A DNA stretch of 64,000 bases from Tessaracoccus defluvii (lineage in GTDB: Bacteria; Actinomycetota; Actinomycetes; Propionibacteriales; Propionibacteriaceae): the NCBI RefSeq assembly GCF_014489575.1, contig NZ_CP060789.1, forward strand, positions 2,108,001-2,172,000. The letters are read 5' to 3'. This document shows positions 14,417 through 64,000 of this stretch, piece after piece. The notes beneath the pieces are model-generated. The model was not told where the DNA came from. It ran no database searches and saw only the letters and a list, made by a program, of their open reading frames with translations. The first letter of the stretch is position 1. Every line of letters begins with the position of its first letter. Position numbers and translations under genes: made by a program.

Positions 14417-14487
14417 CATAGGGTTCCTCCTGTCACCCCCGAGGCTAGGCGCGAACCCCATTGTCCGAGCGGGATCCGGGTTATCCC

Positions 14488-14639
14488 CTTCGAGACGCTC
14501 GCTGGCGCTCACTCCTCAGGGAACACCTTCGAGACGCTCGCTGGCGCTCACTCCTCAGGGAACACCTTCGAGACGCTCGCTGGCGCTCACTCCTCAGGGA
14601 ACGCCTTCGAGACGCTCGCTGGCGCTCACTCCTCAGGGA
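14488..14639. repeat. Four tandem copies of a 39-bp repeat spanning a gene 3' end
   Basis: Copies begin at 14488, 14527, 14566 and 14605, each with the core gagacgctcgctggcgctca and then ctcctcaggga. The last copy supplies the final codons (PEE) and stop of the DUF1593 gene read on the minus strand. The outer copies lie beyond the stop. The unit is rich in imperfect palindrome, as in REP-like elements. Confidence 0.9.
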
Positions 14640-29218: not shown

Positions 29219-29323
29219 GAGCGTCCTCGACGGCGCCGTCGACTGCTGAGAGCGTCCTCGACGGCGCCATCGACTGCTGAGAGCGTCCTCGACGGCGCCA
29301 TCGACTGCTGAGAGCGTCCTCGA
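29190..29323. repeat. 31-bp tandem repeat (four copies plus partial) spanning the TetR 3' end
   Basis: Copies begin at 29190, 29221, 29252 and 29283, with a partial copy from 29314. Each has the core gcgtcctcgacggcgcca and ends ctgaga. The first, slightly diverged copy holds the last codons and stop of the TetR gene. The others lie beyond the stop. Confidence 0.9.
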
Positions 29324-29367
29324 CCCCGAGAGCGCGACCGTATGAAACCGCCAGACCCGGGTCCCGC

Positions 29368-45380: not shown

Positions 45381-48300
45381 GACTTGACCCCGCGTTGGCG
45401 GGGAGCACGATGAGACGGGCATCGTCGTCCCGGAAGGTGAGCGGATCATCCCCGCGTTGGCGGGGAGCACTCCTCGGGATAGATAGCGTGATCCGTGCCA
45501 GACGGGATCATCCCCGCGTTGGCGGGGAGCACTGCTGCGCGGTCTGCACGCGGGACGCGGCCGCCGGATCATCCCCGCGTTGGCGGGGAGCACTCGGTCT
45601 GATCACGATGACGTCGGCGGCTGCGCGGATCATCCCCGCGTTGGCGGGGAGCACTGACCATCGAAACCAAGTTCGGCCCCATCGAACGGATCATCCCCGC
45701 GTTGGCGGGAGCACGTCTTCGCAACGCCCATCAATGCCGTCATCCGCGGATCATCCCCGCGTTGGCGGGGAGCACGGTTCATCGACCGCGACTAACTAGG
45801 TTGGTGCGGGATCATCCCCGCGTTGGCGGGGAGCACGGCACGCCATGGATGTGCGGCGCCCAGTTGCCCGGATCATCCCCGCGTTGGCGGGGAGCACGGC
45901 GCCCTCCTGGACGACGACGCAACCCAGCTGGGATCATCCCCGCGTTGGCGGGGAGCACCTCGGCAGAGCCCGCGGTGACGAACCCACTCCCGGATCATCC
46001 CCGCGTTGGCGGGGAGCACTGCCACCGCCTCGATGGAGTCCTGGACGACGAGGGATCATCCCGCGTTGGCGGGGAGCACGTGCCCAGATTCGCGGCGGCG
46101 TGGATGTGCTGGGGATCATCCCCGCGTTGGCGGGGAGCACTTGCGGGCGATCCGCTGCTCCCGCTCGGCGACCGGATCATCCCCGCGTTGGCGGGGAGCA
46201 CAGCCCGCGCGACCAGGAGAAGGCGCGCCGGCCCGGATCATCCCCGCGTTGGCGGGGAGCACGGCAATTCACTTTCTTGGGCCTCCAGCATTTCCGGATC
46301 ATCCCCGCGTTGGCGGGGAGCACCTCGCAGCCTGGGCCCGCTACAACGAGAGCCAGGGATCATCCCCACGTTGGCGGGGAGCACACGGTCACCGTCAGGA
46401 CGGTGCCGATCGCGCTGGGATCATCCCCGCGTTGGCGGGGAGCACCCCGGCCGTCATCAACCGCATCACGTCTCCCGAGGATCATCCCCGCGTTGGCGGG
46501 GAGCACGTGGCGAACTCGTCGGGCGATCTGAACTCGCTGGGATCATCCCCGCGTTGGCGGGGAGCACTGTCGAGGTTGGCGTCGGGCCCGCGCTGCGTCG
46601 GGATCATCCCCGCGTTGGCGGGGAGCACCCCGTCGCGGTGTCGCGGATCCAGTCCCACGCCGGATCATCCCCGCGTTGGCGGGGAGCACTTACAGATAGA
46701 GAGGAAGTTCCCATGATGAACAGGATCATCCCCGCGTTGGCGGGGAGCACGATGAGACTCTGCGACGTAGGCGCAACGGTGGCGGATCATCCCCGCGTTG
46801 GCGGGGAGCACGCGGTCGGCAGCGTGTCGGTCCAGATCCAGGTGGGATCATCCCCGCGTTGGCGGGGAGCACCAACGAGGAGATCACGCGATGAGCACCG
46901 ACATCGGATCATCCCCGCGTTGGCGGGGAGCACAGATCCAGGGTCCGCGCGTTGTCCTTGCCGCCCGGATCATCCCGCGTTGGCGGGGAGCACGCGAAGC
47001 CGCTCGGGTTGGTCACCGGGAAGACGGGATCATCCCCGCGTTGGCGGGGAGCACCCCGCATCCTCGACCACCTCGACGCTCAACGGAGGATCATCCCCGC
47101 GTTGGCGGGGAGCACTTTACGGAGCTGACGGCGCGCGAGGCGCTGGAAGCTGACGGCGCGCGAGGCGCTGGAAGGATCATCCCCGCGTTGGCGGGCAGCA
47201 CCCGCGCTCGCAGCCGGAGGTGTCGGGAAACTGGGGATCATCCCCGCGTTGGCGGGGAGCACGCGTTAAGCGTAGGCCGGTCAATGAACCCAGCGGGATC
47301 ATCCCCGCGTTGGCGGGGAGCACCGAGTCCACGACGTCTTCACGCGCCGGACGTACGGATCATCCCCGCGTTGGCGGGGAGCACGGTCGTGAACATTCCG
47401 ACGGGCAGGGCCACCGTCGGATCATCCCCGCGTTGGCGGGGAGCACCCGCTGGGCACGCAGGCTACCGGCGATGTGGCGGGATCATCCCCGCGTTGGCGG
47501 GGAGCACCTGCGCCTGTCGCGGGATGCCAACGGGCAGTACGGATCATCCCCGCGTTGGCGGGGAGCACACGAGGACTACCAGCTGGGCATCCTTCGCGAG
47601 GGGATCATCCCCGCGTTGGCGGGGAGCACGGATGTTGTGCCCGCGTTCGAGATTGCGGTGAAGGATCATCCCCGCGTTGGCGGGGAGCACGACTGGCGCG
47701 TGACGGTCAGGTCCCAGGGGGTGGGATCATCCCCGCGTTGGCGGGGAGCACACCGCGACGACCTCGACGCTGTAGCTGGCGCCGGGATCATCCCCGCGTT
47801 GGCGGGGAGCACCTCGACCTGCGCCTACCCGAGTGGGTCCAGGACGGATCATCCCGCGTTGGCGGGAGCACCGCGTGCAAAGTTCTGGCCCACCGCTTGG
47901 CCGCGGATCATCCCGCGTTGGCGGGGAGCACAAAGCAGACTGCCGCGCATCGCTGACGCGATGCGGATCATCCCGCGTTGGCGGGGAGCACCCGATGAGG
48001 GGCGATCCGGTGGCGACGGAGGCCGGATCATCCCCGCGTTGGCGGGGAGCACATCAGGTTGAGCCAGAGCCCGATTTTGCGGGGCGGATCATCCCGCGTT
48101 GGCGGGGAGCACACTACGCCACCGGCGGCATCCGGGAGCGGCATGGGATCATCCCGCGTTGGCGGGGAGCACGTAAGGACGCGGTCACGGCTGCGCAGCG
48201 TGAGCGGATCATCCCCGCGTTGGCGGGGAGCACGTGGGCAGGGGAGGAAAAATCATCATCTACTCCGGATCATCCCCGCGTTGGCGGGGAGCACGGACGA

Positions 48301-51300
48301 GTTGGACGTGACGCCGGTGACGACGAAGGATCATCCCCGCGTTGGCGGGGAGCACGCGGGCCGTGGCTTCTCGGGCGATCTGATTCTTGGATCATCCCCG
48401 CGTTGGCGGGGAGCACGGCGTAACCGTGTCACGCTCCCAATCCATGCAGGGATCATCCCCGCGTTGGCGGGGAGCACACCTGGCTACTACCATTTTCGGG
48501 CTGGGTGTTAGGATCATCCCCGCGTTGGCGGGGAGCACCCATCGGACGTTACCGACCACATAGAGGGAGGGGGATCATCCCCGCGTTGGCGGGGAGCACG
48601 GCCCGGTGTACTCGCCGTCGTAGATGCCGTGCGGATCATCCCGCGTTGGCGGGGAGCACGTCACCTCCTGCGGCCCGGAGATCAGTTTGCCGGGATCATC
48701 CCCGCGTTGGCGGGGAGCACGTCACCTCCTGCGGCCCGGAGATCAGTTTGCCGGGATCATCCCGCGTTGGCGGGGAGCACGGACGTATGCGGCAACTGTT
48801 GGCGGGATTGTGAGGATCATCCCCGCGTTGGCGGGGAGCACCAGCAATCCGCGACACGTCCGCATCAGACAGGGGGATCATCCCCGCGTTGGCGGGGAGC
48901 ACCCGCCAGGCACGATGGCGGCGCCGCTCGGGCCCGGATCATCCCCGCGTTGGCGGGGAGCACTCACCGACCGCCGACGTCATGATCGCCACAACAGGAT
49001 CATCCCCGCGTTGGCGGGGAGCACGCACCGACTCAGCATCACTTCCCGGCCGACACCGGATCATCCCGCGTTGGCGGGGAGCACGCGTCAGATGGTCGTC
49101 TCGGCCGGCCTGGCCGACGGATCATCCCCGCGTTGGCGGGGAGCACACCGACGCCGGCCTCGTCGGCAAGATCCGCGTCGGATCATCCCCGCGTTGGCGG
49201 GAGCACCCCCAGGACTAGCAACGACAGCAGGAATCGCACGGATCATCCCCGCGTTGGCGGGGAGCACCCAGCGAGTGCGTGGCCACGAATGCAGGTGGCC
49301 GGATCATCCCCGCGTTGGCGGGGAGCACAGCGAGAAGGCGCAGCAGCTGGCCGACGATTACGGATCATCCCCGCGTTGGCGGGGAGCACCCCCAGGACTA
49401 GCAACGACAGCAGGAATCGCACGGATCATCCCCGCGTTGGCGGGGAGCACCCAGCGAGTGCGTGGCCACGAATGCAGGTGGCCGGATCATCCCCGCGTTG
49501 GCGGGGAGCACAGCGAGAAGGCGCAGCAGCTGGCCGACGATTACGGATCATCCCCGCGTTGGCGGGGAGCACCGTATCGGGCTGATGGGTCTCGGGCGAA
49601 TGATGGGATCATCCCCGCGTTGGCGGGGAGCACCGTTTGCGCCACTCCCAGGCACCCTGCGGCCCGGGATCATCCCCGCGTTGGCGGGGAGCACAGCCAG
49701 TACACAGCGTCCGCACCGTCGCCGTCCGGATCATCCCCGCGTTGGCGGGGAGCACAGGTTAGGTTGTCGAAGGATTGGCTGCTGGGGGGGATCATCCCCG
49801 CGTTGGCGGGGAGCACGGGGTGGGGGTCTCGGTGCGGGTCGCGGCCTCTGGATCATCCCCGCGTTGGCGGGGAGCACCCTGTCTCGGGGCCCCGGGCCAC
49901 GATGACAGACGGATCATCCCCGCGTTGGCGGGGAGCACGTGACGCTGCCGCTGTCGTCGAGCAGCGTGCCGGGATCATCCCCGCGTTGGCGGGGAGCACC
50001 CATCGAGGCGCTGCTGCGTGAGGCACCCGAGGGGATCATCCCCGCGTTGGCGGGGAGCACCCGTCCTCCAGGCGCGCCAACACCGCCAGAGCGGGATCAT
50101 CCCCGCGTTGGCGGGGAGCACCGAGGTTTGACGTGCTGCACGGTGCACGCCTGCGGATCATCCCCGCGTTGGCGGGGAGCACGCCACCGACTCCAACCGG
50201 TGGACCTCCGCCGACGGATCATCCCCGCGTTGGCGGGGAGCACTCTGTGACCCGCATGACCCGATGGCCTCCGAGCGGATCATCCCCGCGTTGGCGGGGA
50301 GCACGTCTCCGTGACCTCCTGCCAGCCGTCGGGCCCGGGATCATCCCCGCGTTGGCGGGGAGCACCAGCCGGCGAACGGGTTCACGATCTTGACGTACGG
50401 ATCATCCCCGCGTTGGCGGGGAGCACATGGCGAAAAGCGCGTCGCCGAGATCCTCGGCCGGATCATCCCCGCGTTGGCGGGGAGCACACGGCCCGTGTGA
50501 AGGTGATGCACGCCAACGGCGGATCATCCCCGCGTTGGCGGGGAGCACACGGCCCGTGTGAAGGTGATGCACGCCAACGGCGGATCATCCCCGCGTTGGC
50601 GGGGAGCACTCCCGGTGGATAGGGAGTGGATTGCTGAACACAGGATCATCCCCGCGTTGGCGGGGAGCACAGCCGATCGGCGGCTGCGGGGTTCGATGCG
50701 GTGGGATCATCCCCGCGTTGGCGGGGAGCACTATCCGATGAGTATGCAGGCACCTATCCTCGCCGGATCATCCCCGCGTTGGCGGGAAGCACTGCCCCGC
50801 CGTCCTCCCCGTCCAACTACGCATAGGATCATCCCCGCGTTGGCGGGGAGCACTCGTCATCGTCATCGAGGTGGGCGAGCGGGTCCGGATCATCCCCGCG
50901 TTGGCGGGGAGCACATCGCGCCCCGCCTCGAGGACATGGCCGGCGGGGGATCATCCCCGCGTTGGCGGGGAGCACTTTAACGGGATTTCCGAAGGGGAGC
51001 AGGACCGGGGATCATCCCCGCGTTGGCGGGGAGCACCCATGGCCGTGCCGTCCCAGTAGCGCACGGCCGGGATCATCCCCGCGTTGGCGGGGAGCACGAC
51101 GTGGCCTCGAAACTGGGGTTCGGCGCGGCGGGATCATCCCCGCGTTGGCGGGGAGCACGTTGCCGCATCACCAAGACCGAAAGCCGTGCCCGGATCATCC
51201 CCGCGTTGGCGGGGAGCACGTGGAGGGTCCGTTTCCGGAACTCTGCCGGGGGGGATCATCCCCGCGTTGGCGGGGAGCACTCGCGAGCGAACTCGTCGGC

Positions 51301-54300
51301 CTCCGCCGAAAGCGGATCATCCCCGCGTTGGCGGGGAGCACTTCAACTATGGCCCGCCTCCGGTCGAGTTCAGCGGATCATCCCCGCGTTGGCGGGGAGC
51401 ACCTGCGCCTGTCTCGGGATGCCAACGGGCAGTACGGATCATCCCCGCGTTGGCGGGGAGCACTCGTCGAACTCGCAGACCCGCGGGTCGTCGAACGGAT
51501 CATCCCCGCGTTGGCGGGGAGCACTCCGAGATCGCGCAGGTGCTCGGCTGGTCCCGGGGATCATCCCCGCGTTGGCGGGGAGCACCAGGCTGATCTGCTC
51601 GGTGTTGCAGGCGGCGCAGGATCATCCCCGCGTTGGCGGGGAGCACTGCGCCTGCGTGAGGCCAGCAGCGGCAGCAGCCGGATCATCCCCGCGTTGGCGG
51701 GGAGCACATCCTCGGAGGCATCGGTCGAGCCGGCGTTCGCGGATCATCCCCGCGTTGGCGGGGAGCACGGACCATGACGGACCATGTGCCGGTGCCGCCG
51801 GGGATCATCCCCGCGTTGGCGGGGAGCACACCGGCCCGCTGCCCAAGACGGCACTCGAACGCGGATCATCCCCGCGTTGGCGGGGAGCACCCGCCAGGCA
51901 CGATGACCGCGCCAGACGGCCCCGGATCATCCCCGCGTTGGCGGGGAGCACAGCCCGTCGCACCCGTCGCACCAGACCCACCGGGGATCATCCCCGCGTT
52001 GGCGGGGAGCACGCGCACCGCTCGACCAGGTCGGCGGGGATGAGGGGATCATCCCCGCGTTGGCGGGGAGCACGGCAATCGCCGGGGGCTGCTGTCGTTC
52101 TAGGCCGGATCATCCCCGCGTTGGCGGGGAGCACACCTGCGTTGCGGTAGCCGACTGGCCAGCCTGCGGATCATCCCCGCGTTGGCGGGGAGCACGCGAT
52201 GTTGAACACGGCAGTGTTGAGGGTGTCGGGATCATCCCCGCGTTGGCGGGGAGCACGGCTTGGCATAGGTCGTAGCTCACGCGGTCTCCGGATCATCCCC
52301 GCGTTGGCGGGGAGCACGTCACGAAGACGGTCAGCGGCACCCCGGAGCAGGGATCATCCCCGCGTTGGCGGGGAGCACCCGTCCAGCTCCTGGGACCTCC
52401 CGAGGAACACAGGATCATCCCCGCGTTGGCGGGGAGCACCCGTACCCCCGAAAGGACATTCCGATGGGACTAGGATCATCCCCGCGTTGGCGGGGAGCAC
52501 TCTCGTGGGGTGTAGCCGTCGGCTCCGGCCTCGGGATCATCCCCGCGTTGGCGGGGAGCACGCGAAGCTTCGGTCGGTCGGTGTCGAGTTTGACGGATCA
52601 TCCCCGCGTTGGCGGGGAGCACGGAAGGCTGTCACGATCGTGGGCACTGGCTTCCGGATCATCCCCGCGTTGGCGGGAGCACATTTCCGAGGGACCCGGC
52701 AATACCGGTCCACAGGGATCATCCCCGCGTTGGCGGGGAGCACTCGCGGACCAGGCCGACGAGGCGACGCTCTTGAGGATCATCCCCGCGTTGGCGGGGA
52801 GCACCGGGCGCGCTTGGTGCCGCCTGCGGTGGCGGACGGATCATCCCCGCGTTGGCGGGGAGCACGCGACGAGGGTGACCTTGCCCTTGAAGCCGCCCGG
52901 ATCATCCCCGCGTTGGCGGGGAGCACTCTAGTTCCGTCCGGCATAACCAGAGCGTGCGGGGATCATCCCCGCGTTGGCGGGGAGCACTGACCATCCTTTC
53001 GTTCCGCTCCCGGCCGGCTCGGATCATCCCCGCGTTGGCGGGGAGCACAGGTCGAAGCCGAACTGGCCGCCATGCACGGCGGGATCATCCCCGCGTTGGC
53101 GGGGAGCACGCATCTACGACGGCGAGTACACCGGGCCGTGGAGGATCATCCCCGCGTTGGCGGGGAGCACGTCTCGACAGTGCGGATCACGTCGTCCATC
53201 GCGGGATCATCCCCGCGTTGGCGGGGAGCACCCTGTCTCGGGGCCCCGGGCCACGATGACAGACGGATCATCCCCGCGTTGGCGGGGAGCACTCTTTATG
53301 GTCTGTATCTGGTCTGGTCTGGTCGGGATCATCCCCGCGTTGGCGGGGAGCACGCAGCCAAGCCAGCGGCCAGATATCCGGCCGCCGGATCATCCCCGCG
53401 TTGGCGGGGAGCACACGAGGTGGCCGGCTGTGAGTGTGAAGTGACCGGGATCATCCCCGCGTTGGCGGGGAGCACCAATGGCTGGCAGTTGTTTTGTGCA
53501 GCGAACCAGGATCATCCCCGCGTTGGCGGGGAGCACTGTGCCCGGAACGCGGCCTACCCGCTGGGCACCGGATCATCCCCGCGTTGGCGGGGAGCACCTC
53601 GACCTCAGCGCCGCCGATTGGGAGCCCAGCGGATCATCCCCGCGTTGGCGGGGAGCACGCGCCGGTCGCCGGAGTTGATCGTCTCGGTGACGGATCATCC
53701 CCGCGTTGGCGGGGAGCACTACGGCAGCGTCCGGCCCGTGGTGCGGGCCTGGGGATCATCCCCGCGTTGGCGGGGAGCACTGACGGACGGCGCTATCTCC
53801 GTAGGTAAGTCCAGGATCATCCCCGCGTTGGCGGGGAGCACACCCCCGCCGCAAACGTCGGCTTGCCCACGACCGGATCATCCCCGCGTTGGCGGGAGCA
53901 CGACGCGAGATCCGCGCCGGTCTGGATCAGCTCGGGATCATCCCCGCGTTGGCGGGGAGCACTCTACCTGACCCTGGCGGCCGAGTAGTCGGCTGGGATC
54001 ATCCCCGCGTTGGCGGGGAGCACACCCGAGGAACCTCACCCTGCCCGGTGTGTGGGGGATCATCCCCGCGTTGGCGGGGAGCACTGTCGCCACGGTGCTG
54101 CCCTCCCCCGCGCTTACGGATCATCCCCGCGTTGGCGGGGAGCACACAACATTCTTCATGATGAAGTCGGCCAACGTCGGATCATCCCCGCGTTGGCGGG
54201 GAGCACTACGAACTCACCAGGCCGAGCGACAAGCAAGTCGGATCATCCCCGCGTTGGCGGGGAGCACGGTGGCTATATCCGGGACTTCGTCATCCCGTAC

Positions 54301-54695
54301 CGGATCATCCCCGCGTTGGCGGGGAGCACGTATGGATTGACGTACTCCCCAGTATGGGGAAGGGATCATCCCCGCGTTGGCGGGGAGCACGTGGGGCGCT
54401 GCCGCAGTCGCAGCTGGATGCCCGGATCATCCCCGCGTTGGCGGGGAGCACACCATCATGCAGGCCAGCGCCGATACCGCGGACGGATCATCCCCGCGTT
54501 GGCGGGGAGCACGGGGCCTGCCTGCTCGAGCAGTGCGATCAGGGCGGATCATCCCCGCGTTGGCGGGGAGCACCGCTCCACGCAGCCCTCCGGTGACGGT
54601 GGGGCAGGATCATCCCCGCGTTGGCGGGGAGCACCCGATGAGGCCACGGTAGAGGCTGACCTGTCGGGGATCATCCCCGCGTTGGCGGGGAGCAC
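45381..54695 (-). CRISPR. Type I-E CRISPR array, about 153 repeats
   Basis: On the minus strand the 28-base repeat starts GTGCTCCCCGCCAACG and ends CGGGGATGATCC, alternating with 33-base spacers (period 61; the first spacer base is probably PAM-derived, usually G or C). Coordinate arithmetic gives about 153 repeats and 152 spacers. The repeat at 45381-45408 has seven altered bases at its outer end (GACTTGA instead of GGATCAT on the plus strand). This marks the old trailer end, so the leader is at the right next to cas2. About 15 repeats lack one or two bases in their C or G runs, and a few carry substitutions (for example near 46370, 47195 and 50786). Several spacers are duplicated. Confidence 0.99.
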
Positions 54696-54735: not shown

Positions 54736-55095
54736 TCAGTCGGTTTGCGTCCTGCTTCGCAGGTAGCGGTACCTCGCCGCCTTCGGGATCACGGTTCGAA
54801 CCGTAGGCCCCGTGATGTCGTTTGCCGGCGGCCTCCGCAACAGCACCATCCCGTCCAGGTCGACCGGCTCCCATCGATGGCCGACATTGCGCACCTCGAA
54901 GCCCTGCTCATTTCTTGCCGAGAGCACCATGAGCGCCGTTCCGGTCTCGATCCCGTCACAGGTGATCTTCCATAGTTCGTCCCGCACCCGGGGGTTCACC
55001 CGACCGACGAACACCCCCGGCGCCACCTCCATGAGCCACTTGGTCAGGTGTCCCCGGATTCCCTCAGGAACCTTGCTGAGTACGATCGTGATCAC
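54736..55095 (-). CDS. cas2: CRISPR-associated endonuclease-like protein Cas2 (type I-E)
   Basis: This 119-residue partner of Cas1 forms the central dimer of the spacer-integration complex. It opens MITIVLSKVPEGIRGHLTKWLMEV, as Cas2e does. GVFVGRVNPRVRDELWKI, typical of the I-E subgroup, follows. It is about 20 residues longer than E. coli Cas2, with a basic tail (AARYRYLRSRTQTD). The GTG start overlaps the cas1 stop by four bases. It is the last gene of the operon, 40 bases from the array. Confidence 0.95.
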   Translation of the reverse strand: MITIVLSKVPEGIRGHLTKWLMEVAPGVFVGRVNPRVRDELWKITCDGIETGTALMVLSARNEQGFEVRNVGHRWEPVDLDGMVLLRRPPANDITGPTVRTVIPKAARYRYLRSRTQTD

Positions 55096-56027
55096 CAGTC
55101 CACCTCATCCCCGTACGAGACACCGGCCGCCACCGCCCCAGCCCGGTCATCCCACAGCTGGATCACATCGATATCCAACTCAGTCTCGTCACCCGGCAGG
55201 AGCAGATCCCTCAGATCCCGGACGCAGCGCTTGAGGATGTCCCCCTCTCGCAACGCGTCGCGCACCGCCCTACGCACCTCCCCCGTAATGTCCGGAGGAT
55301 CGTCAGCGACGGTGTCGAAGGCGATCGGGATCGTGCACTGCGCCTTGTAGAGGTCGGCCATGTCATAAACCAACGCACGGGAATGGCCAGTGTGAACGAA
55401 CCCGAGCCCCGGCGAGCATCCGAGGCTGACGATGACCGCGTGAACAACGCCGTAGAGGCAGGAGTGGGCAGCAGACAACGCCTGGTTGATGGCGTCGGAA
55501 TCAGTGAACGCTTCGGGATCGTAATCGCGACGTTTCCAGTCGACCCCCGTCCGCTCGGAATGGAGCCGATAGATCGACCGGACGCGTGCCCCCTCCCGGC
55601 CCCGTAGCTGCTGCATCGTCAGGCCGGAGACGACTTCATCGGGAAACCGCATCTCGTACATGCGCCTCGCGACCGCGAGCCGCTTACGGGTGTTGGAGAC
55701 CGCATCGGCCTGCGCCTCGAGAAGGCGCGTGCTGCGCGCCAAAGACGAGCCATGCGCGTAGTAGCGGACCCCCTGCTCCCCCACCCACACCACAGTCACC
55801 CCGCACTGCGCCAGCAACATCATGGCGTGATGCGTGACCCGCGTTCCGGGGCCCAGCAGCACGGCACTCAGCGTCGCGGCCGGCACATGGACGGTGCCGC
55901 GCTGATCGGTCGCGGTGATGGCGTTACTGTCACGGCTGATCGTGCAGCGCTCCAGGTGGAGGAAGGTGACCCTGTCCTCCACCCGGAGCAGCTGACGTGA
56001 CGACGGAGGCGCCGCCCCCTTCATCAC
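55092..56027 (-). CDS. cas1: CRISPR-associated integrase Cas1 (type I-E)
   Basis: This 311-residue integrase inserts new spacers. The metal-binding residues are visible: E145 in LRGREGARVRSIY, H212 in GFVHTGHS and D222/D225 in LVYDMADLYK. The N-terminal beta domain (about 1-95) and helical catalytic domain have the normal order and length for Cas1e. The GTG at 56027 overlaps the cas6e stop; an ATG one codon later is equally plausible. It overlaps cas2 by four bases. Confidence 0.97.
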   Translation of the reverse strand: MMKGAAPPSSRQLLRVEDRVTFLHLERCTISRDSNAITATDQRGTVHVPAATLSAVLLGPGTRVTHHAMMLLAQCGVTVVWVGEQGVRYYAHGSSLARSTRLLEAQADAVSNTRKRLAVARRMYEMRFPDEVVSGLTMQQLRGREGARVRSIYRLHSERTGVDWKRRDYDPEAFTDSDAINQALSAAHSCLYGVVHAVIVSLGCSPGLGFVHTGHSRALVYDMADLYKAQCTIPIAFDTVADDPPDITGEVRRAVRDALREGDILKRCVRDLRDLLLPGDETELDIDVIQLWDDRAGAVAAGVSYGDEVDW

Positions 56028-56659
56028 AAGGGCGCGAGTGTCATCAGGCCACAGCCGTAGGCCTTGGCCCTGCCGATCCCTGAGGTCAGCGCCCGTCGGA
56101 ATGCCTCCGGATCGGTGACTCTCAGAGCACCGTCGAACGTGGCACGCCCCAGCGTGACGGTGCCCTCCGCGCGCCGGAACTTGCGGACCTCACGGCTGGT
56201 CAGCGTGAACGTGGGCTCCTCAGCGGACCCCAGGTCCACGCCGATCGCTTCCTGGCGTGACGAGAGCCACCCGACCTGCTGCGCCACCGTCACGTGCGCG
56301 ACGATCTGCTGTCGCCCGTTGATGGTTGCCCGATGGACCGGGTTGGCCGTCAAGCGGAACGCCCACGCAGACCCCTCCGACACCGCATCAAGGAGAGGCA
56401 CATACGACATCGACTGGGTCGTCGGCTGGCTCGGCCACCCGGCCTGCTCCTCGACATGGACGAAGTCGGGAGTCTTCTCACTGAGGACGTACAGGGCGGG
56501 TCGCAGCGGATCGTCGGGGTCGATCCGCCAGAGAGGCCTGCCCGGCTCCACATCCGGCGGGAACCCACTCATGATCGCCGCATGCATGGCCTGCGGCGAG
56601 CCGAGCAGCTTCCGCGCACCGTCACGCCGAACGTTGAGATACGTACGGGTCAGGATCAT
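56024..56659 (-). CDS. cas6e: crRNA-processing endoribonuclease Cas6e (Cse3/CasE)
   Basis: This 211-residue subunit of Cascade cuts the repeat hairpin and stays on the crRNA 3' end. The likely catalytic histidine is H26 in SPQAMHAAIMSGFP, matching the position in Thermus Cse3. The C-terminal glycine-rich loop is GIGRAKAYGCGLMTLAPL. The ATG at 56659 overlaps the cas5 stop by four bases and its end overlaps cas1. Confidence 0.95.
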   Translation of the reverse strand: MILTRTYLNVRRDGARKLLGSPQAMHAAIMSGFPPDVEPGRPLWRIDPDDPLRPALYVLSEKTPDFVHVEEQAGWPSQPTTQSMSYVPLLDAVSEGSAWAFRLTANPVHRATINGRQQIVAHVTVAQQVGWLSSRQEAIGVDLGSAEEPTFTLTSREVRKFRRAEGTVTLGRATFDGALRVTDPEAFRRALTSGIGRAKAYGCGLMTLAPL

Positions 56660-57381
56660 TTCACTCCTCCCAGGAAGGCCATCGGATCGTGTGCAGGCCC
56701 GCCGCGGCTTTCGGCTACGTCGTTGCCGGTGGGGATGACGACGAAACTGTCGACGACCATGCGTGTGCCGTACTGACGGCGCTCGGGGTCCCAGGAGACC
56801 GGGACGTCCGGGAGCTCCTTGCTGGGGACCTCGTCCGGGAACACGGACTGGTCGGCCTGAACGGGCAGTTCCACGCTGCTCTCACGCCTCGCCTGCCGCC
56901 GCCCCGTCTCGCCTGCCATCCACGGCATGTCGCTCAGCGACTCGGCTACTGACGCCTCGACGATGTCGAGGACAATCCGTCCTTCGGGCACACATGCCCG
57001 CCGACCGAAGTACAGCGGAAAAGCGGGATCACGGAGCGACTCCGCCAGCCCCTCCAGCACCTCACGCGGGCCACCGATGTGGGCGGTGAACACCGCATCC
57101 GACCAGTAGTAGCGGTCGGTCAACGGCATGGCCGCCCCCGTGACCTGATGATGCGCGGTGTGAAAGTCACGGAGGGGTTGGCCCTGCTGTTCGGTTCGCA
57201 CTCCGAGCTCGAGCTTCAGCAGGTCCTCGATGGGGTCGCTCCTTCTGCGGCCCTCGGCGGCGGCGAGCAGCCCAAGAATCCCACTCTTGGTGGGAATCGG
57301 CTCCGTGCCGCGGCGGGTGAATCGGCTGGTGGCCCCCCAGCTCTGTAGGGGGCCCGCCAACCTGAGCCTCAGGACGCTCAC
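56656..57381 (-). CDS. cas5e: Cascade subunit Cas5e (CasD)
   Basis: This 241-residue protein holds the crRNA 5' handle. It opens SVLRLRLAGPLQSWGATSRF, a RAMP-type beta strand with the family LQSWG motif. PIPTKSGILGLLAAAEGRRR follows. FPLYFGRRACVPEG near residue 150 is also typical. The GTG at 57381 is chosen because the motif starts at once and it overlaps the cas7 stop as GTGTGA. A longer upstream frame would run into cas7. Confidence 0.95.
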   Translation of the reverse strand: MSVLRLRLAGPLQSWGATSRFTRRGTEPIPTKSGILGLLAAAEGRRRSDPIEDLLKLELGVRTEQQGQPLRDFHTAHHQVTGAAMPLTDRYYWSDAVFTAHIGGPREVLEGLAESLRDPAFPLYFGRRACVPEGRIVLDIVEASVAESLSDMPWMAGETGRRQARRESSVELPVQADQSVFPDEVPSKELPDVPVSWDPERRQYGTRMVVDSFVVIPTGNDVAESRGGPAHDPMAFLGGVK

Positions 57382-58502
57382 ACCGACTCCAGCACGCTGC
57401 TGCCAGCAGCCTCCACGAGCTCGTCGAACGAGCGCAGGTCGCCGAGGTCCGCCAGTGCTCCCAGCTCGGACGGCGTACCGGTGACCCACACGCTGCTCGG
57501 CTGACGCCAGGTGCCGAACACCTCTGAAGCGTGCTTGGCCAGGGCTTCGACCGCCCGGGCGACGTAGCCGTCACTCGAGCGGATGGGCTTCTCGAAGGCG
57601 CCGACGAGGCTGCTCGGCTGGCCGCTGGCGACGGTCACGAGAACGGCAGCCGGCCTGGTGCCGTTCGCGAACGTGTTCTGCTTCCCCGAGGGCATCGAGT
57701 TGACGAAACTCCGGACGAAGGCCTCGAGCGCGAGACGCGCCGCCTCCTCATCGCCGAGGTTGGCCCGCAGCTGATCAAGGTTCACCGCGGCGTAGCGGTA
57801 GAGGGTCGAGGACACGAAACCGACGGTGCCCATCATTCCGGCGCCCGCGTCCTCCTCGTCAGCGTTACGGCTCTTGGCGTCGTCGACTGCGGTGAAGAAG
57901 TCGAACTCGGGGATGGCCTCGTGGACGCTGATGGCATGGGCAACCTGGCAGGCCGCGTCGACGTTGAGATCAGCGGCGTCGGCGACCATCCGGCCGAAGA
58001 GGGCGATGTCGACGGAGTGGTCAGCGTCAACGAGATCCTTGACCTTGGCGGCCTTCATGGCATTGAGCGGGTTGTCCTCGCCGCTGGCCTCGATGGCTGC
58101 GGCCGCAAGGCTCTCGAGTTGGCGCTGCGACAGGAACACCAGGTACCCGGTTTCCGGAGCCCCCGCCGTGTCCTTGCCGGTCTTGCGGGGTACAGGCTTC
58201 TTGAAGCCGGCCGCTTCCATGGCCGCCACAGCAAGCTCCTGAGCCTGGGGGGCCAGGTCTTCACGGGCTTCGACGATCATTTTCTCGATCGACGTGACCA
58301 GCATCCGGCTGCGGGTGCCGACGTCCTTCGGATCGAGGTGATTGTTGAAGTCGGTGCGCATGGCGCGCTTCCATGACTGTGAGGACACCCGGGCGCGCGT
58401 GACGCCGCCGTAGATGGCGCTCTTGGGGGATCCGGTGTCGTCGCGGTTGAGGTTCGCCGGAGGAACGGACTGGATCGCGTGGATCTCGAGGTACGTGGTC
58501 AT
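57378..58502 (-). CDS. cas7e: Cascade backbone subunit Cas7e (CasC/Cse4)
   Basis: This 374-residue RAMP protein is present in six copies along the crRNA in known type I-E complexes. Conserved parts are the opening LEIHAIQSVPPANLNRDDTG, AIYGGVTRARVSSQSWKRAM, DIALFGRMVADAADLNVDAA and the C-terminal thumb/glycine region FVNSMPSGKQNTFANGT. Its start overlaps the cse2 stop by four bases. Confidence 0.96.
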   Translation of the reverse strand: MTTYLEIHAIQSVPPANLNRDDTGSPKSAIYGGVTRARVSSQSWKRAMRTDFNNHLDPKDVGTRSRMLVTSIEKMIVEAREDLAPQAQELAVAAMEAAGFKKPVPRKTGKDTAGAPETGYLVFLSQRQLESLAAAAIEASGEDNPLNAMKAAKVKDLVDADHSVDIALFGRMVADAADLNVDAACQVAHAISVHEAIPEFDFFTAVDDAKSRNADEEDAGAGMMGTVGFVSSTLYRYAAVNLDQLRANLGDEEAARLALEAFVRSFVNSMPSGKQNTFANGTRPAAVLVTVASGQPSSLVGAFEKPIRSSDGYVARAVEALAKHASEVFGTWRQPSSVWVTGTPSELGALADLGDLRSFDELVEAAGSSVLESV

Positions 58503-59092
58503 TCTGAAACTCCTTCGTTGGATTCGGTCTGCAGGTAGTGGAAGTCGCGGCCCCAGCGGCGGTGCACGTCACGTGCACCGGAGGGAGCCAGGAACCAGTA
58601 GAGGTCTTCGGCGTATCGGCCGTAGTCGAACGCGATCTCATGCGTGCGAAGCTGGGTGATCAGCCCTCGCGAGTGGGCAAGGAGCCCTGGCAGAGTGCTC
58701 GCCGTCGACATGGCAGTGAACCGGCGGTAGACCGGTGACTCATGCGGCTCCGCCTTGTTCGAGATGTCGGCGAGGCGCCGGACGGCACGGCCGAACGGCT
58801 GCTTCGGATCGTGCATGTTCCGCGACCGGGACTGCTGATGCACCGCGAACTGCGTGAGGGCGATGTGCACCGCCTGCTCGGCCCGCTCCCGGTAGCCCCG
58901 GGGTAGGTCCGCAGGGATGCCTTCCAGGGTCACTGCCCAGACGGCGGGGGCAGTTCCGGGCTCGGCCGCAGCAGCCTGACGCAGCTGCGCCAGGAGAGCC
59001 TTGGAGTTCGGCGACATGCGGCCGGGGTCAGCCCCGACCAATTGATGGATGCGTCGGGTGACGAATGACCCGACTTTGAAGTCACTGCTCAT
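58499..59092 (-). CDS. cse2: Cascade small subunit Cse2 (Cas11e/CasB)
   Basis: This is a 197-residue helical protein that sits as a dimer along the inner face of Cascade and stabilises the displaced strand. Family pieces are RMSPNSKALLAQLRQAAA, AVHIALTQFAVHQQSR, FGRAVRRLADISN and the C-terminal FDYGRYAEDLYWF. I chose the ATG at 59092 (MSSDFKVGSFV), which overlaps cse1 by 11 bases, over a longer upstream frame lacking conservation. Confidence 0.93.
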   Translation of the reverse strand: MSSDFKVGSFVTRRIHQLVGADPGRMSPNSKALLAQLRQAAAAEPGTAPAVWAVTLEGIPADLPRGYRERAEQAVHIALTQFAVHQQSRSRNMHDPKQPFGRAVRRLADISNKAEPHESPVYRRFTAMSTASTLPGLLAHSRGLITQLRTHEIAFDYGRYAEDLYWFLAPSGARDVHRRWGRDFHYLQTESNEGVSE

Positions 59093-60686
59093 TGTCTGCT
59101 TCCTTGTTGGGATCCTGCGGGTAGGCAAGCACCAGCTCCTTGCGGAGAGCGGCGCGGAGGTAACTCTCGGCCTTCGCTGCGGTCATATAGCCAAACTTCG
59201 TCATGCGCCCCGTTACCGCAGCCGGGCTGCAGCTCACGGCCATGCGAGCGGCCAGGGTTTCGATCACTGCCGCCACGCGCCTGTGCCAGTCGCGGCGGGC
59301 CTCGATCGTGTCGGTGTCGGCATCGAGGGTGCCCAGCCAGCTGCGGGCGGGGTGGTCGAGCTCAGCCCAGGCTGTCTCACGGGCACGATCCCGGGCTCCA
59401 TCGACACCGTCGAAATCCCCGGCAGCGCTGGCGATGTTCGCGGCCATCCGTCCCAGTGCCCACACTGCCTGGTCGGCAGAGCGGACGACGTCGTAGAGCA
59501 TCAGCTGCACCTCGGCGGCGTCCTCGCCGAGCATGCGGAGCCGCAGGTCGAGTGAGTCGTGCACCATGTCGTTGACGGTCGCTTCCTGTGGACCGTACTC
59601 AATGCCGACCAGCTCAACCACCACCTCCGTGTCCAGTTCCGTGAACTGCTCGGAGTGCCCGGCGAGGCTGGCGACCGTCGCCGGCCGGATGCTCTCCTCA
59701 TGCCCGTCCGCCGTCCGGCTCGGGGCGTCCGAAACCAGTCCCGGCATGCCTCGCCATGCGGCCCGGCTGGGGTCGTGCTTGCGGGGCATGTAGACCGGGA
59801 TCTTGTGCTTTTTGCTCTGCGGCTCGGAGTAGCGCCATGCGGTCATGTGCTCGAGCGACTGCCGGTTTTGGGGCGTCATCCGATCGCCCTGGGCCAGAAC
59901 GACACCCGTGACACCGTCGCGATCCCCGACAAGCCGGATCCGGCGCGACTGCCAGACCAGCACTTGTACCGGGCCCTGGGGATCGGGTTCCATCTGTCGC
60001 ACTGCTGTCTGCGGCACGTCGTTCGTCCAGACTGGGCGATCGAGCGGGTTTTCCGGCGTCGGCACCACGTTGTAGACCAGCGTGTGGGCGAGGGTCTGGC
60101 CATGCAGCACAACGCCTCCGATCTGCCCTGCCCAGGCGGGGCCGATGGGGTATCCCTTGCCCGCCTTGACCTCTGGATCCCCGACGGCGCCCGAGCGGAT
60201 GCCAGCCGCATCGAAGGCCTGCGCATGCACCACCCACAGCGCCGCCTCGTGGGCCGGGATAACCCTCAGTGCTTCCCCTCCACGCGTCGTCAGGAAGGGG
60301 GCCCCGTTGGGCACATCGCTGATCAGCTTCTCCAATGGCGAGGCCTCGTCCTTGGCTGTGCGGAGGCCCACGACCTGCATGAACGGACGCTCCGGATGGA
60401 AGAGGTCGAAACGGTCCGCGTAGCGATCGAGGTAGGCCGCGATGGTGGACTGGTCCAGCCCATCGCGGAGACTTGCAGCCACGTCCGCGCTCCGATGGAA
60501 CCCGACCGCGTCGTGATGGATGGCCAGGAGAAGTCTCAGGACGGCGAACGATTGGGTCGGCAGATCTGCGCTGATACGCCGCACCTCGCTGGCACGCGTG
60601 AAGGCATCGCGGATGGACAGCCGCACGGCTGAGCCGTCGGTGAGGATCGCCGGGATCCAGCGTTCGGTGAGCAGGTCGTAGCTCAT
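59082..60686 (-). CDS. cse1: Cascade large subunit Cse1 (Cas8e/CasA)
   Basis: This 534-residue protein recognises the PAM and recruits Cas3. It opens MSYDLLTERWIPAILTDGS, the standard Cse1 start. FHPERPFMQVVGL, GAPFLTTRGGEALRVIPAHE and PLDRPVWTND follow, with a C-terminal four-helix bundle. The start overlaps the cas3 stop by four bases. If the cre-like RNA upstream of cas3 works, this subunit would have to accept a AAA-type PAM at the cas3 promoter. Confidence 0.96.
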   Translation of the reverse strand: MSYDLLTERWIPAILTDGSAVRLSIRDAFTRASEVRRISADLPTQSFAVLRLLLAIHHDAVGFHRSADVAASLRDGLDQSTIAAYLDRYADRFDLFHPERPFMQVVGLRTAKDEASPLEKLISDVPNGAPFLTTRGGEALRVIPAHEAALWVVHAQAFDAAGIRSGAVGDPEVKAGKGYPIGPAWAGQIGGVVLHGQTLAHTLVYNVVPTPENPLDRPVWTNDVPQTAVRQMEPDPQGPVQVLVWQSRRIRLVGDRDGVTGVVLAQGDRMTPQNRQSLEHMTAWRYSEPQSKKHKIPVYMPRKHDPSRAAWRGMPGLVSDAPSRTADGHEESIRPATVASLAGHSEQFTELDTEVVVELVGIEYGPQEATVNDMVHDSLDLRLRMLGEDAAEVQLMLYDVVRSADQAVWALGRMAANIASAAGDFDGVDGARDRARETAWAELDHPARSWLGTLDADTDTIEARRDWHRRVAAVIETLAARMAVSCSPAAVTGRMTKFGYMTAAKAESYLRAALRKELVLAYPQDPNKEADNEQ

Positions 60687-63547
60687 GAGTCGTTCACCTC
60701 CATCCCCTGTTCGGGCGAGTAACGCAGCTCATAGCTGCGCGTCCCCACCGTGAGTGTCGTTGACAAGGTGTTACTCCCTTCGTGGGTCTGTGCCATGACG
60801 AGCAGCAGTTCGCTGCGGAGCAGTGGGTGTCGCCTCAGAAGCCAGCGCCGGGTGCGGGGGTCGCGGTCGATCTCTTGGATGACCGCATCCAGCGCCCCGT
60901 CCCAGCGCGTGAGCCGCCCGGGGAGGCGCACGGACCAGCTGGCCACCTCGCGTGCGAGGTCGTCGCTGGGCAGTGACGAGACGTCCAGGATGCTGGTTCC
61001 CGTTTTGAGCCACGGTGGTCGGATCGCACTGGAGCCGTCAGGCAGGGTCGGCACGAGGATGACCTCCAGCGACGGTTCCGTGTCCCGCACCGCGGCACCC
61101 ATCGCGAGCTCGGTGAAGTCGCCGCTGGTCGCCAGCCACTCGCCGAGCGTCGCGCGGTCGTCCTCCGCGCCGGCCCACGGACGGACGCACCACTGCGCCG
61201 CCTTGGCCCGGGCCTTGGCGATCTGAGCCAGATACTTCCCGCGGGCCGTGTTGACGGGTCCTGCCCAGTCCGACAAGAGCTCCGCTTCGGGGCCTAGCGC
61301 CGAGGCAACCAGCGGCGCCGTGTCCTGCGGGAGCGTGATGACGGCGCCGTGCTTGGTGAGCGCCTCTGTGGTGCGCAGCAGGAGGTACCCGCCGTAGACG
61401 ATCTCTGATCCCTTGGTCGGCGCGGGGATGGGACCCGAACCGACGTCGGTCAGGAAAAATGTGCGCGCTTCACGGTGGGACTCCGGGCGGGCTCGCCACG
61501 AATGGCGATGGAGCCTGCCGATTCTCTGGAGGAGGAGGTCGGCCGGGGCGATGTCGGTGTAGAGGGCGTCGAAGTCGATGTCCAGACTCTGCTCGACCAC
61601 CTGCGTCGCCACGACCACCTGGCCGGGCCGAGTTTCCTCGTCAGACCCCTTCCCGAACCGGTGGATGAGGTCGAGGTCGTTGTTGGCGCGGTCGACCGCA
61701 ATGAATCCCGCATGGTTGAGCGTCACCGGCAACCCCGCCTCGGTCAGCGCATCGGCGGTGGCCTGGGCATCCTTGACGGTGTTGCGCACCACAAGAACAC
61801 ACGCGCCCGCGTCCGCGTCTGCACGAACCGATGCGACGATCTCCTCCACGCTGGTTCCATGCCACGACCAGGTGACGCTGCGTTCCTGGCCCCGCTCGTC
61901 CACCACCTCGAGCCTCACGGGCTGGTCATCGCGCGGGACAACCGAGATCAGCGGGTAGTCGTCCTCACACATAGGGAGGGCATCGATCTCTGCGGAGCGC
62001 GCGCCCGCGTAGGCTTTCATCATTGCCCGCTTCCGCTCGGCGGTGAGTGTTGCGGAGAGGACGATGATAGAAACGTCGTAGGCGCCCAGCCAGCTGAGAA
62101 CAGACTCCAGATAAACCGACATGAATTCGTCGCTGGAGTGCGCTTCATCGATGATGACAATCTTCCCGGAGAGTGCGACGTGGGCGAGCATGAGGTGCTT
62201 GCGCTGCAGCCCGGCCATGAGCAGCTGATCGATCGTCACCACGCTGAAATTTGCAAGCAGACGACGCTTGGAGGAAAGGAACCACTGATGCACGACGGCA
62301 TTGCACAGCATGCCGTCGGTTTCATCCTCATGGATGCCGGAGCTTCTGGCTGTGTTGAACACGTGATCGAAGTTACGCACCGCCTCAGACATTTTGGCGT
62401 AGCGCCTGTTGAGGGAGGCCTTTCCATGGCCGAGGGTCACGGCCCAGGCCGCGGACTCCTTGGGGAGTTCTGGCAGTCTCTCCAGCCAGTCCGCGATGCG
62501 GGTGAACATTGCGTCCGTCGTTGCCTGGGTGGGCAGGGCGATGAGGATTCCCTGAGCTCCCCGTTGGGCGCCAACCACCTCAGCCACAGCCAACGCGGCC
62601 TCCGTCTTTCCTCCTCCAGTGCTGGTCTCGATGAACATGAGCCCCACGTCCACAGTCGAAGCCAACTCAACCGCTGTCTGCTGAACGGCGTGCGGAACCG
62701 CGTCGTCGGGGAGGGCGAACCGGGCGCGGAAGAACGCCTCGAGGTCGCTCGTGTCCACGGGCGCTGGCTCCCACGGAGGAGGCATCGCCGCCTCCTCCCA
62801 TCCGTGGAGCGCCCGCGCACCCATGTCAAGAGTCGGCGCCCCATCCTCGTCGCGACCGCGGAGCGGAAACAGTCTCGTGTTTGAGGCCAACCAGTCAGAG
62901 ACAATCACGAGTCCGGTCACCTCGACCAGAATGGGAAGCGGAATACGCGGCAGATCGCCACTCACGAGAACCTCAGAGAATCCGGTGAGCTCACTGATCC
63001 AGTCGATGAGCTCATTGCGCACCGCCCGCCAGGGATCTCCTCCCATTCCCTGCTTCCGAATGCGCGGGTTTCGCATTCGTCCCTCTGCCATCGGGGTACC
63101 ATGGTGAGCGCCGACGACGGAGGCGAGCGGTTCTGCGACCTCCTTGTCGAGCCCTTCGAGCATGAGCCACTGCCTCAAGGAGTACTCGCTGATCAACGAG
63201 TGAGGCAGTTCCCGTCGGTCGTCGCGGATCTCGCTCATCAGGCGGCAGGCGAGGCCGGCGTCGCGTGCCTTCTGCGCCAACGGCTCGCTTTGAGCGACAA
63301 ACGCGGGGGCTGCTTTTCCCACGTCATGTACGCCCGCGAGAAACAGCACCATAGACCTGAACTGCCCGTCACTCAGTCCCGTGGAATTCCAGCGCTCTCT
63401 GACAGTGTGGGAAATCCAACTGTCATAGAGATACGCAGCGATCCAGACGCTGTCGAGGAGATGCTGATCAAGAGGCAGCCACTCGGTTGGCCCTCCGGTC
63501 TTGGCCCAGACCGACATCGCCTGCTCACTGAGTTGCCTCGTCGTCAT
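60683..63547 (-). CDS. cas3: CRISPR-associated helicase-nuclease Cas3
   Basis: This is a 954-residue effector with an N-terminal HD nuclease (histidine in PLDQHLLDSVW; HD in FLAGVHDVGKAAPAF). The SF2 helicase has STGGGKTEAALAVAEVV as Walker A, IVIIDEAHSSDEFMSVYLES as the DEAH box, IIVLSATLTAERKRAM, and VVATQVVEQSLDIDFDAL with the final arginine motif IGRLHRH. It unwinds and degrades DNA bound by Cascade. I prefer the ATG at 63547, which has GGGGTGGGGATA before it. A GTG at 63556 in the same frame would add three residues. It is the first gene of the eight-gene operon. Confidence 0.96.
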   Translation of the reverse strand: MTTRQLSEQAMSVWAKTGGPTEWLPLDQHLLDSVWIAAYLYDSWISHTVRERWNSTGLSDGQFRSMVLFLAGVHDVGKAAPAFVAQSEPLAQKARDAGLACRLMSEIRDDRRELPHSLISEYSLRQWLMLEGLDKEVAEPLASVVGAHHGTPMAEGRMRNPRIRKQGMGGDPWRAVRNELIDWISELTGFSEVLVSGDLPRIPLPILVEVTGLVIVSDWLASNTRLFPLRGRDEDGAPTLDMGARALHGWEEAAMPPPWEPAPVDTSDLEAFFRARFALPDDAVPHAVQQTAVELASTVDVGLMFIETSTGGGKTEAALAVAEVVGAQRGAQGILIALPTQATTDAMFTRIADWLERLPELPKESAAWAVTLGHGKASLNRRYAKMSEAVRNFDHVFNTARSSGIHEDETDGMLCNAVVHQWFLSSKRRLLANFSVVTIDQLLMAGLQRKHLMLAHVALSGKIVIIDEAHSSDEFMSVYLESVLSWLGAYDVSIIVLSATLTAERKRAMMKAYAGARSAEIDALPMCEDDYPLISVVPRDDQPVRLEVVDERGQERSVTWSWHGTSVEEIVASVRADADAGACVLVVRNTVKDAQATADALTEAGLPVTLNHAGFIAVDRANNDLDLIHRFGKGSDEETRPGQVVVATQVVEQSLDIDFDALYTDIAPADLLLQRIGRLHRHSWRARPESHREARTFFLTDVGSGPIPAPTKGSEIVYGGYLLLRTTEALTKHGAVITLPQDTAPLVASALGPEAELLSDWAGPVNTARGKYLAQIAKARAKAAQWCVRPWAGAEDDRATLGEWLATSGDFTELAMGAAVRDTEPSLEVILVPTLPDGSSAIRPPWLKTGTSILDVSSLPSDDLAREVASWSVRLPGRLTRWDGALDAVIQEIDRDPRTRRWLLRRHPLLRSELLLVMAQTHEGSNTLSTTLTVGTRSYELRYSPEQGMEVNDS

Positions 63548-63597
63548 TATCCCCACCCCGGTCGGAGATTGTCTGCGGGCTGTGCAACGCTGCTCAT
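63547..63597 (-). CDS. Possible 16-codon leader ORF coupled to cas3
   Basis: ATG at 63597 opens MSSVAQPADNLRPGWG, with the stop TAA sharing its last base with the cas3 ATG (TAATG). GGGTGAC precedes the ATG, a weak ribosome site. The tight overlap suggests translational coupling of cas3 to a leader peptide, but chance cannot be excluded. Confidence 0.3.
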   Translation of the reverse strand: MSSVAQPADNLRPGWG

Positions 63598-63605
63598 GTC
63601 ACCCG

Positions 63606-63631
63606 CGAAGGAACCTTCACTGGCTCCTTCG
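63606..63631. promoter_or_regulatory. Inverted repeat at the predicted cas3 transcription start
   Basis: CGAAGGA (63606-63612) and TCCTTCG (63625-63631) form a perfect seven-base dyad with 12 bases between. It covers the predicted start near 63629 and could be a repressor site or a 5' UTR hairpin. Confidence 0.4.
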
Positions 63632-63635
63632 AAGA

Positions 63636-63641
63636 AGGATA
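63636..63641 (-). promoter_or_regulatory. Probable -10 element of the cas operon
   Basis: TATCCT on the minus strand. With a 17-base spacer the -35 position falls at 63659-63664, inside the 11-base sequence shared with the cre-like RNA. The -35 itself does not resemble TTGACA. Confidence 0.4.
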
Positions 63642-63657
63642 GCACGCCATCCGTCAC

Positions 63658-63668
63658 GAGGCGGCTAG
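63658..63668 (-). promoter_or_regulatory. Seed-match target of the cre-like RNA in the cas3 promoter
   Basis: On the minus strand CTAGCCGCCTC is identical to the first 11 bases of the spacer of the CRISPR-resembling unit at 63684-63771. The base after it mismatches, then two match. The three bases 5' of the match are AAA, in the PAM position for a type I-E protospacer. Confidence 0.6.
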
Positions 63669-63683
63669 TTTGCGCAACAATTT

Positions 63684-63771
63684 CCGGAAGCCCCGCCGAG
63701 GCGGGGAACACAGGTACCTACAGGCCTTCGCAAGAGGCGGCTAGCGGATCATCCCCGATCACGGGGCACAC
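63684..63771 (-). ncRNA. CRISPR-resembling RNA unit (degenerate repeat-spacer-degenerate repeat), candidate cas autoregulator
   Basis: Read on the minus strand, the first degenerate repeat (63771-63746, 26 bases) begins GTGTGCCCCG and keeps the last 11 bases of the array repeat, GGGGATGATCC, so the crRNA 5' handle is intact. Next come one G at the PAM-derived position and a 33-base spacer (63744-63712). The second degenerate repeat (63711-63684, 28 bases) keeps the hairpin CCCCGC-CTCG-GCGGGG needed for Cas6e but has lost the handle (CTTCCGG). The unit could therefore give one crRNA only. Its spacer starts CTAGCCGCCTC, found again in the cas3 promoter. Partial pairing of this kind permits Cascade binding without Cas3 cleavage in described CRISPR-resembling RNAs (CreA/CreR). 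The functional role here is inferred. Confidence 0.75.
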
Positions 63772-63786
63772 CTGCGGGCGCGTCAC

Positions 63787-63792
63787 ACCTTA
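63787..63792 (-). promoter_or_regulatory. Probable -10 of the cre-like RNA
   Basis: TAAGGT ends 15 bases before the first degenerate repeat. The main array has the identical hexamer ending 14 bases before its first repeat, which supports both as real promoters. Confidence 0.45.
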
Positions 63793-64000
63793 CGGGGCGA
63801 AGGGCCAGACGGCGAGCAGATCGCGCCGGTCAAGGAGCGCCCTCGCCCACCGCGATGGAGCCGGGTCGGCGTGGTGCCTAGCTAGCTAGTAGTAGTTACC
63901 TCCCCGCCCCCGCCCAATCACTCTGGCAGCTTACCGATCCCGATCCAACTGATCTCGAGAGCAGAGGGCACCGGGCTGCTCGGTACCAGCGGTCGCTGTA
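63793..64000. other. Region beyond the cre-like unit, no gene seen
   Basis: No supported gene lies here. It contains a TTGACC (63833-63828, minus strand) that could be a -35 element, and an odd simple-sequence tract around 63879-63895 where CTAG is repeated three times and then TAG. The last 80 bases show no start codon or RNA gene that I can support. Confidence 0.4.

Follow-up and report, generated by a model that had tools for sequence, protein, structure and literature searches.

A candidate CreR-type guide ahead of cas3 in Tessaracoccus defluvii, with guide-site covariation in related cas3 loci

Just upstream of its type I-E cas operon, and on the same (minus) strand, Tessaracoccus defluvii carries a short CRISPR-like unit that stands apart from the CRISPR array and whose spacer begins with 11 nucleotides that recur ahead of cas3. 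What does such a unit do there? We analysed it within the window, by which we mean the whole 64,000-nt stretch of T. defluvii DNA under study, and in related cas3 loci. The simplest reading is that the unit is CreR, a cas-regulating guide such as has been described in types I-B, I-E and V-A.

The unit and its match ahead of cas3

The operon next to the unit is a typed one. The cas3 gene (60683-63547, minus strand; likely ATG at 63547) passed both the core and the HD models and scored under the cut-off of the E. coli-type full-length model, and cas8e, cse2, cas7, cas5, cas6e, cas1 and cas2 (54736-60686, minus strand) each exceeded the cut-off of the NCBIfam type I-E models, by which the cognate effector genes beside the unit are intact. 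Directly 3' of cas2 lies the large type I-E array (45381-54695, minus strand), with 151 repeats by one count and the repeat consensus GTGCTCCCCGCCAACGCGGGGATGATCC. There, 144 of the 150 gaps measure 33 nt after a 28-nt repeat, which makes the spacers 32 nt if the variable 29th base is given to the repeat, the convention used for the units below. The array also contains six pairs of identical spacers, a near-exact 183-bp block duplicated around 49179-49573, 13 repeats that are shorter by one base, and a perfect 25-bp tandem repeat (47123-47174) in a 58-nt gap between repeats. Elsewhere in the window there are two short tandem arrays (14487-14639, 39 bp x 3.9 at 99%; 29192-29324, 31 bp x 4.3 at 96%), and past its right end, upstream of the unit (L002:12212-16368), we observed a partial DDE transposase match and a protein that combines a TOTE conflict-system primase domain with helicase domains.

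The unit itself spans 63684-63771. Its first pseudo-repeat (63745-63771, minus strand, 27 nt) forms a 5-bp hairpin, CCCCG-TGAT-CGGGG, followed by ATGATCCG, the 8-nt handle of the array, unaltered at 63745-63752. The 33-nt guide (63712-63744, minus strand), delimited by sequence and a length rule, has its seed, nt 1-11, at 63734-63744, and the second pseudo-repeat (63684-63711, minus strand) retains a Cas6-type 6-bp hairpin, CCCCGC-CTCG-GCGGGG, and has no handle. The first-pass annotation had described exactly this, two degenerate type I-E repeats on the cas-operon strand around a 33-base spacer, the upstream one with an exact 5' handle and the downstream one with the cleavage hairpin only, and a direct reading of the sequence bears it out. 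With a single spacer between two degenerate repeats of the cognate type, the unit has the anatomy of a mini-CRISPR; 135 of the 151 array repeats are identical, whereas both repeats of the unit are degenerate, so that the near-identical repeats of an ordinary CRISPR array are lacking.

Type I-E processing, with an 8-nt handle and cleavage after the hairpin, predicts a mature guide RNA of ~62 nt from 63752 down to 63691 (minus strand). The species of roughly 61 nt that had been proposed, from 63753 to about 63692, differs from this by one base. Folded as a single RNA, the unit was no more stable than its shuffles (z = -0.10), which counts against it, although the centroid structure contained both hairpins; the fold was given no weight as support. 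A search of 63500-64000 against Rfam returned no family match up to E = 1, and a known RNA family was on this ground rejected as the identity of the unit.

The start of the spacer, CTAGCCGCCTC, is repeated exactly at 63668-63658 on the minus strand, with AAA before it (63669-63671) and a mismatch at nt 12, just as had been noted earlier. This target lies downstream of the spacer and ahead of cas3, 76 nt from the spacer start, so that the unit has what marks CreR, partial seed complementarity, with a PAM, to the region ahead of its cognate cas operon. AAN is the reported PAM of the Streptomyces avermitilis type I-E system according to the accessible portion of PMC12231136, and the PAMs of type I-E given in the corresponding portion of PMC8482600 include AAC, AAG, AAN, AAT and AAA.

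Guide-site pairs in related cas3 loci

We collected related loci by cas3 searches in overlapping genome sets, which matched 43 of 198 genomes in the family set, 45 of 391 in the order set, 52 of 394 in the class set, and 22 of 197 and 13 of 199 in a second and a third family. From the class set 51 of 55 matches were used; those left out were T. defluvii's own, one already in the family set (L025), one partial Cas3 and one starting at a contig end. A scan of named genomes with an alignment as query retained 80 of 331 loci; with one Cas3 as query, the same scan confirmed no relative. After four named loci on contigs already sampled and three repeats of loci already sampled in the last two sets had been dropped, 207 distinct cas3 loci remained (43 from the family, 6 from the order, 51 from the class, 20 and 11 from the two other families, and 76 named), of which 204 had at least 300 nt upstream.

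From the 700 nt ahead of cas3, every exact handle was taken as a word, regardless of whether it belonged to an array, to a pseudo-repeat or to neither. Each word was then given the score of the AAN site that matched it best in its own region, with both strands considered and spacer nt 1-5 and 7-11 counted. For CreA of type I-B, the part of PMC8501985 available to us reports that these guide positions are needed for repression and that positions 6 and 12 are irrelevant. The 207 loci yielded 182 handle words, of which 17 scored 9/10 and 16 scored 10/10 in their own region, 33 in total. When words were paired with the regions of other loci (n = 5460), 14 reached 9 and none reached 10; about 0.5 matches are therefore expected by chance among 182 words. 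Conserved pairing of the seed with the region ahead of cas3, whose absence in relatives the first-pass annotation had named as a refutation, is thus present, in 33 of 182 words at home as against 14 of 5460 swapped.

The 33 matching words belong to 32 loci and represent 31 distinct spacers. One of them, at -626 in locus L006, has its site inside cas3 and no second hairpin, and is probably the expected chance match; it was kept in the counts, so that for true units 30 distinct spacers is a likelier figure than 31. A handle with one mismatch precedes two more units (L052 and L054), which enter the length and hairpin tables, outside the covariation counts, and another (L119), at 8/10, fell below the threshold. 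Units were found in 21 of the 43 family loci and in 11 of the 164 others (order 1/6, class 3/51, the two other families 3/20 and 2/11, named genomes 2/76), a frequency from which it follows that a type I-E operon can do without the unit.

The guides differ between lineages, yet a change in the guide goes with a change in its site. In the close kin L026, L027 and L030/L031, guide nt 7 and 11 differ and the site has changed likewise, and nt 6 drifts; in Rothia nasimurium (L045) and in L196, which stands next to it on the Cas3 tree, nt 7-11 read ATGTG and TTATA respectively, each matched at home. The positions that were left unscored carry information of their own. Across the 31 distinct spacers, nt 6 pairs in 4 and nt 12 in 6, as against nt 13 in 24, nt 14 in 21 and nt 17 in 19; nt 18-32 pair at about one quarter on average, with the exception of nt 19 (15/31). 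An earlier run on fewer loci, in which nt 1-11 were weighted equally and no PAM was imposed, gave 4/21 for each of nt 6 and nt 12, and in that run AAN preceded 15 of the 20 matches that scored 10-11, 8 of the 29 at 9 and 1 of the 50 at 7-8, so that the PAM class emerged in relatives unprompted. The T. defluvii unit is alone among the 31 distinct spacers in having AAA. The conserved pairing within each locus, together with the gaps at nt 6 and 12, supports the suggestion, made earlier from the T. defluvii sequence, of a predicted Cascade guide directed at the DNA upstream of its own cas3.

The second repeat is conserved as well. A repeat-like hairpin follows the spacer in 31 of the 32 units, which had been chosen by handle and seed and not by hairpin, whereas under the same rule one follows 320 of 2515 starts chosen at random in these regions. 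The rule did not find a second hairpin in L054. Pair-by-pair inspection of 30 units gave six paired positions in 29 and a shorter 5-bp stem in L016, and stem pairs 3, 5 and 6 have two-sided changes among them. Two loci have a more complex layout. In L014 a regular array (646 to 139 nt upstream of cas3) holds the regulatory guide in its last stretch, where the first repeat of the guide has diverged; it looks as though the unit had arisen from the array, or the array beside the unit. In L031 the unit, 231 nt upstream of cas3, has its hairpin repeat in a second copy, and may be a two-spacer mini-array.

As to where the targets lie, a -10-like hexamer in T. defluvii, TATCCT (63636-63641, minus strand), 27 nt after the target start, marks the predicted cas3 promoter, which was absent from the output of a sigma-70 consensus scan. 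Among 26 same-strand targets, TAnnnT occurs 22-27 nt after the target in 10 and 28-33 nt after it in 6, as against 1-3 in every other 6-nt bin, and the seed would therefore be predicted to cover the -35 region. Five of the 31 targets are on the opposite strand and two lie upstream of the guide, on its far side from cas3; the geometry with respect to the cas promoter is thus not fixed.

Competing explanations and a predicted mechanism

The degenerate repeats could also be those of an ordinary one-spacer array in decay, with an 11-nt match in the same intergenic region that arose by chance. In the 3.86-Mb genome the target ahead of cas3 is the one place with the exact pattern of PAM and seed core, AANCTAGCNGCCTC, and since about 0.5 occurrences are expected in random sequence of that size by our own arithmetic, one exact match per genome could indeed be chance; with one mismatch tolerated, there are six further places in the genome, compared with ten for a reversed control pattern. 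Against this, the match lies close to the guide with its PAM in the correct register, and shuffling the spacer 20,000 times gave a full 10/10 core match once, with all 46 AAN sites counted outside the guide in the 760-nt region of the unit open to it. True array spacers upstream of cas3 in five loci (L014, L028, L117, L209 and L219) score 5-7/10 where the units score 9-10, and the pairing of guide and site is conserved in relatives. We consider array decay very improbable, and reject a chance match on the basis of the shuffles and the swapped pairings. The least probable of the explanations considered is that the 11-mer is a direct repeat bound by a protein regulator of cas3, its CRISPR-like flanks being incidental: it is repeated in the same orientation, like many operators, but the site sequences differ across lineages and are preceded by an AA dinucleotide, and unpaired nt 6 and 12 would be unexpected for an operator. 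The PAM and the pattern at nt 6 and 12 led us to reject it.

Somewhat less remote, yet still unlikely, is that the guide is a CreA antitoxin that silences a small toxin gene, as in CreTA, rather than a regulator of cas. Its anatomy and seed rule would be identical, and small RNA toxins are easily missed, with ~110 nt between the target and cas3. Against this, cas3 comes directly after the site, that strand carrying no ORF of at least 100 aa in between, and the genome has no second exact site for PAM plus core.

We therefore favour, with a probability of about 0.87, the reading of the T. defluvii unit as a CreR-type element, the source of a predicted Cas6e-cut, crRNA-like guide that likely takes Cascade to a site ahead of cas3, where the 11-nt seed match would block transcription without cutting by Cas3. 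In this scheme Cas6e would cleave the unit transcript to give the crRNA-like guide, which would bring Cascade to the site just ahead of cas3; the 11-nt seed match would be enough for binding and a transcription block and too short to license Cas3 cutting; and array crRNAs or anti-CRISPR proteins would draw Cascade off the guide, so relieving repression. From the published CreR mechanism we infer that the unit is transcribed, that its target is the promoter of cas3, that Cascade bound there lowers expression of cas3 and the operon, and that the loop senses crRNA or free Cascade, with array crRNAs and anti-CRISPRs lifting the repression. CreR guides are reported to act on cas promoters in types I-B, I-E and V-A and to be relieved by crRNAs and anti-CRISPRs, as far as the accessible text of PMC13131331 and PMC12737573 goes. 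The unit is thus predicted to be a thermostat with which the defence complex likely turns down its own production, and if the guide works as predicted, it would be a built-in gauge, with cas expression rising when crRNAs or anti-CRISPRs divert Cascade. In the guide-site pairs of relatives, evolution has in effect run a mutagenesis series: pairing is kept at nt 1-5 and 7-11 and often at 13-17, and the pairs supply matched sets for swap experiments.

Spacer lengths and relation to known systems

Unit length, from the spacer start to the second repeat by one rule, was measurable in 31 of 32 units, with 20 nt in 8, 21 in 9, 22 in 2, 30 in 1, 32 in 6, 33 in 2, and 34, 38 and 44 nt in 1 each. Thirty of the 31 lengths equal 32 + 6n + 0 to 2 nt, the exception being L170 at 30 nt, and no unit measures 23-29 nt; hairpins after random starts, located by the same rule, show no steps (63, 60, 45, 34, 62 and 56 across the six classes). 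Mapped onto a Cas3 tree built from 28 loci with a unit, size class requires 8 changes; for the short class, well-supported branches force 7 of these. On this tree T. defluvii, with its unit of 33 nt, is sister to L005, with one of 20 nt (support 96/94). The chance that all eight states fall in the right half of the cycle is ~0.004 if the band had been fixed beforehand, and the band was partly seen first; with few independent changes, the statistics of the size steps are modest. Judged by eye, short and long units have no claimable difference in pairing length.

These lengths suggest, at even odds in our estimate, that the Cas7 backbone dictates a fixed set of sizes for cas-regulating guides in actinobacteria (20-22, 32-34, 38 and 44 nt, or -12, canonical, +6 and +12), that lineages have switched between them repeatedly, and that many build a shortened or lengthened Cascade solely to repress their own operon, with standard-size complexes doing immunity. 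The size steps do not concern the T. defluvii unit, which has the canonical length and would rely on its short match. For a repressor barred from cutting or priming against its own operon, natural units of 20-22 nt would be a good fit, and if the steps hold, the question of how cells stop Cascade from cutting their own cas genes would become directly testable. The covariation across the family and the size steps are a more interesting product of this analysis than the T. defluvii unit itself.

The primary CreR paper is Liu et al. 2023. A class of standalone repeats whose spacers partly match cas gene promoters was reportedly computed by Shmakov et al. 2023; the lists of these CRISPR-derived RNA regulatory elements may include some of the present loci. 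In the accessible portions of PMC13131331, PMC12737573 and PMC12948488, CreR resembles the T. defluvii unit in being a mini-CRISPR with degenerate repeats and a partial match ahead of its own cas operon, from which autorepression via Cascade would be expected here too; for the T. defluvii unit, expression and repression are predictions. Those portions give no account of covariation between guide and site across the family, or of size steps, in Actinomycetes, and a literature search, with subscription papers mostly outside its coverage, found no description of size steps or of CreR in this family. CreA of CreTA shares the degenerate repeats and the identical seed rule (pairing at nt 1-5 and 7-11, with 6 and 12 irrelevant) in what is accessible of PMC8501985 and PMC9458426, in which the first repeat is the more diverged one; CreA guards a toxin gene, whereas the T. 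defluvii site precedes cas3 and no toxin gene was seen. The closest parallel to the size steps is in engineered guides. According to the available part of PMC10989794, changing the length of the spacer gives type I complexes of altered stoichiometry, and in type I-B spacers of 21-24 bp repress strongly, 20 bp represses more weakly (44% of mRNA remaining), and spacers of up to 24 bp support neither cutting nor priming. The likeness is repression by short spacers without cutting or priming; the difference is that those guides are engineered and of type I-B, while the units described here are natural type I-E units of 20-22, 38 and 44 nt. If the size steps hold, nature uses as dedicated regulators the altered Cascade sizes otherwise met only in engineered guides.
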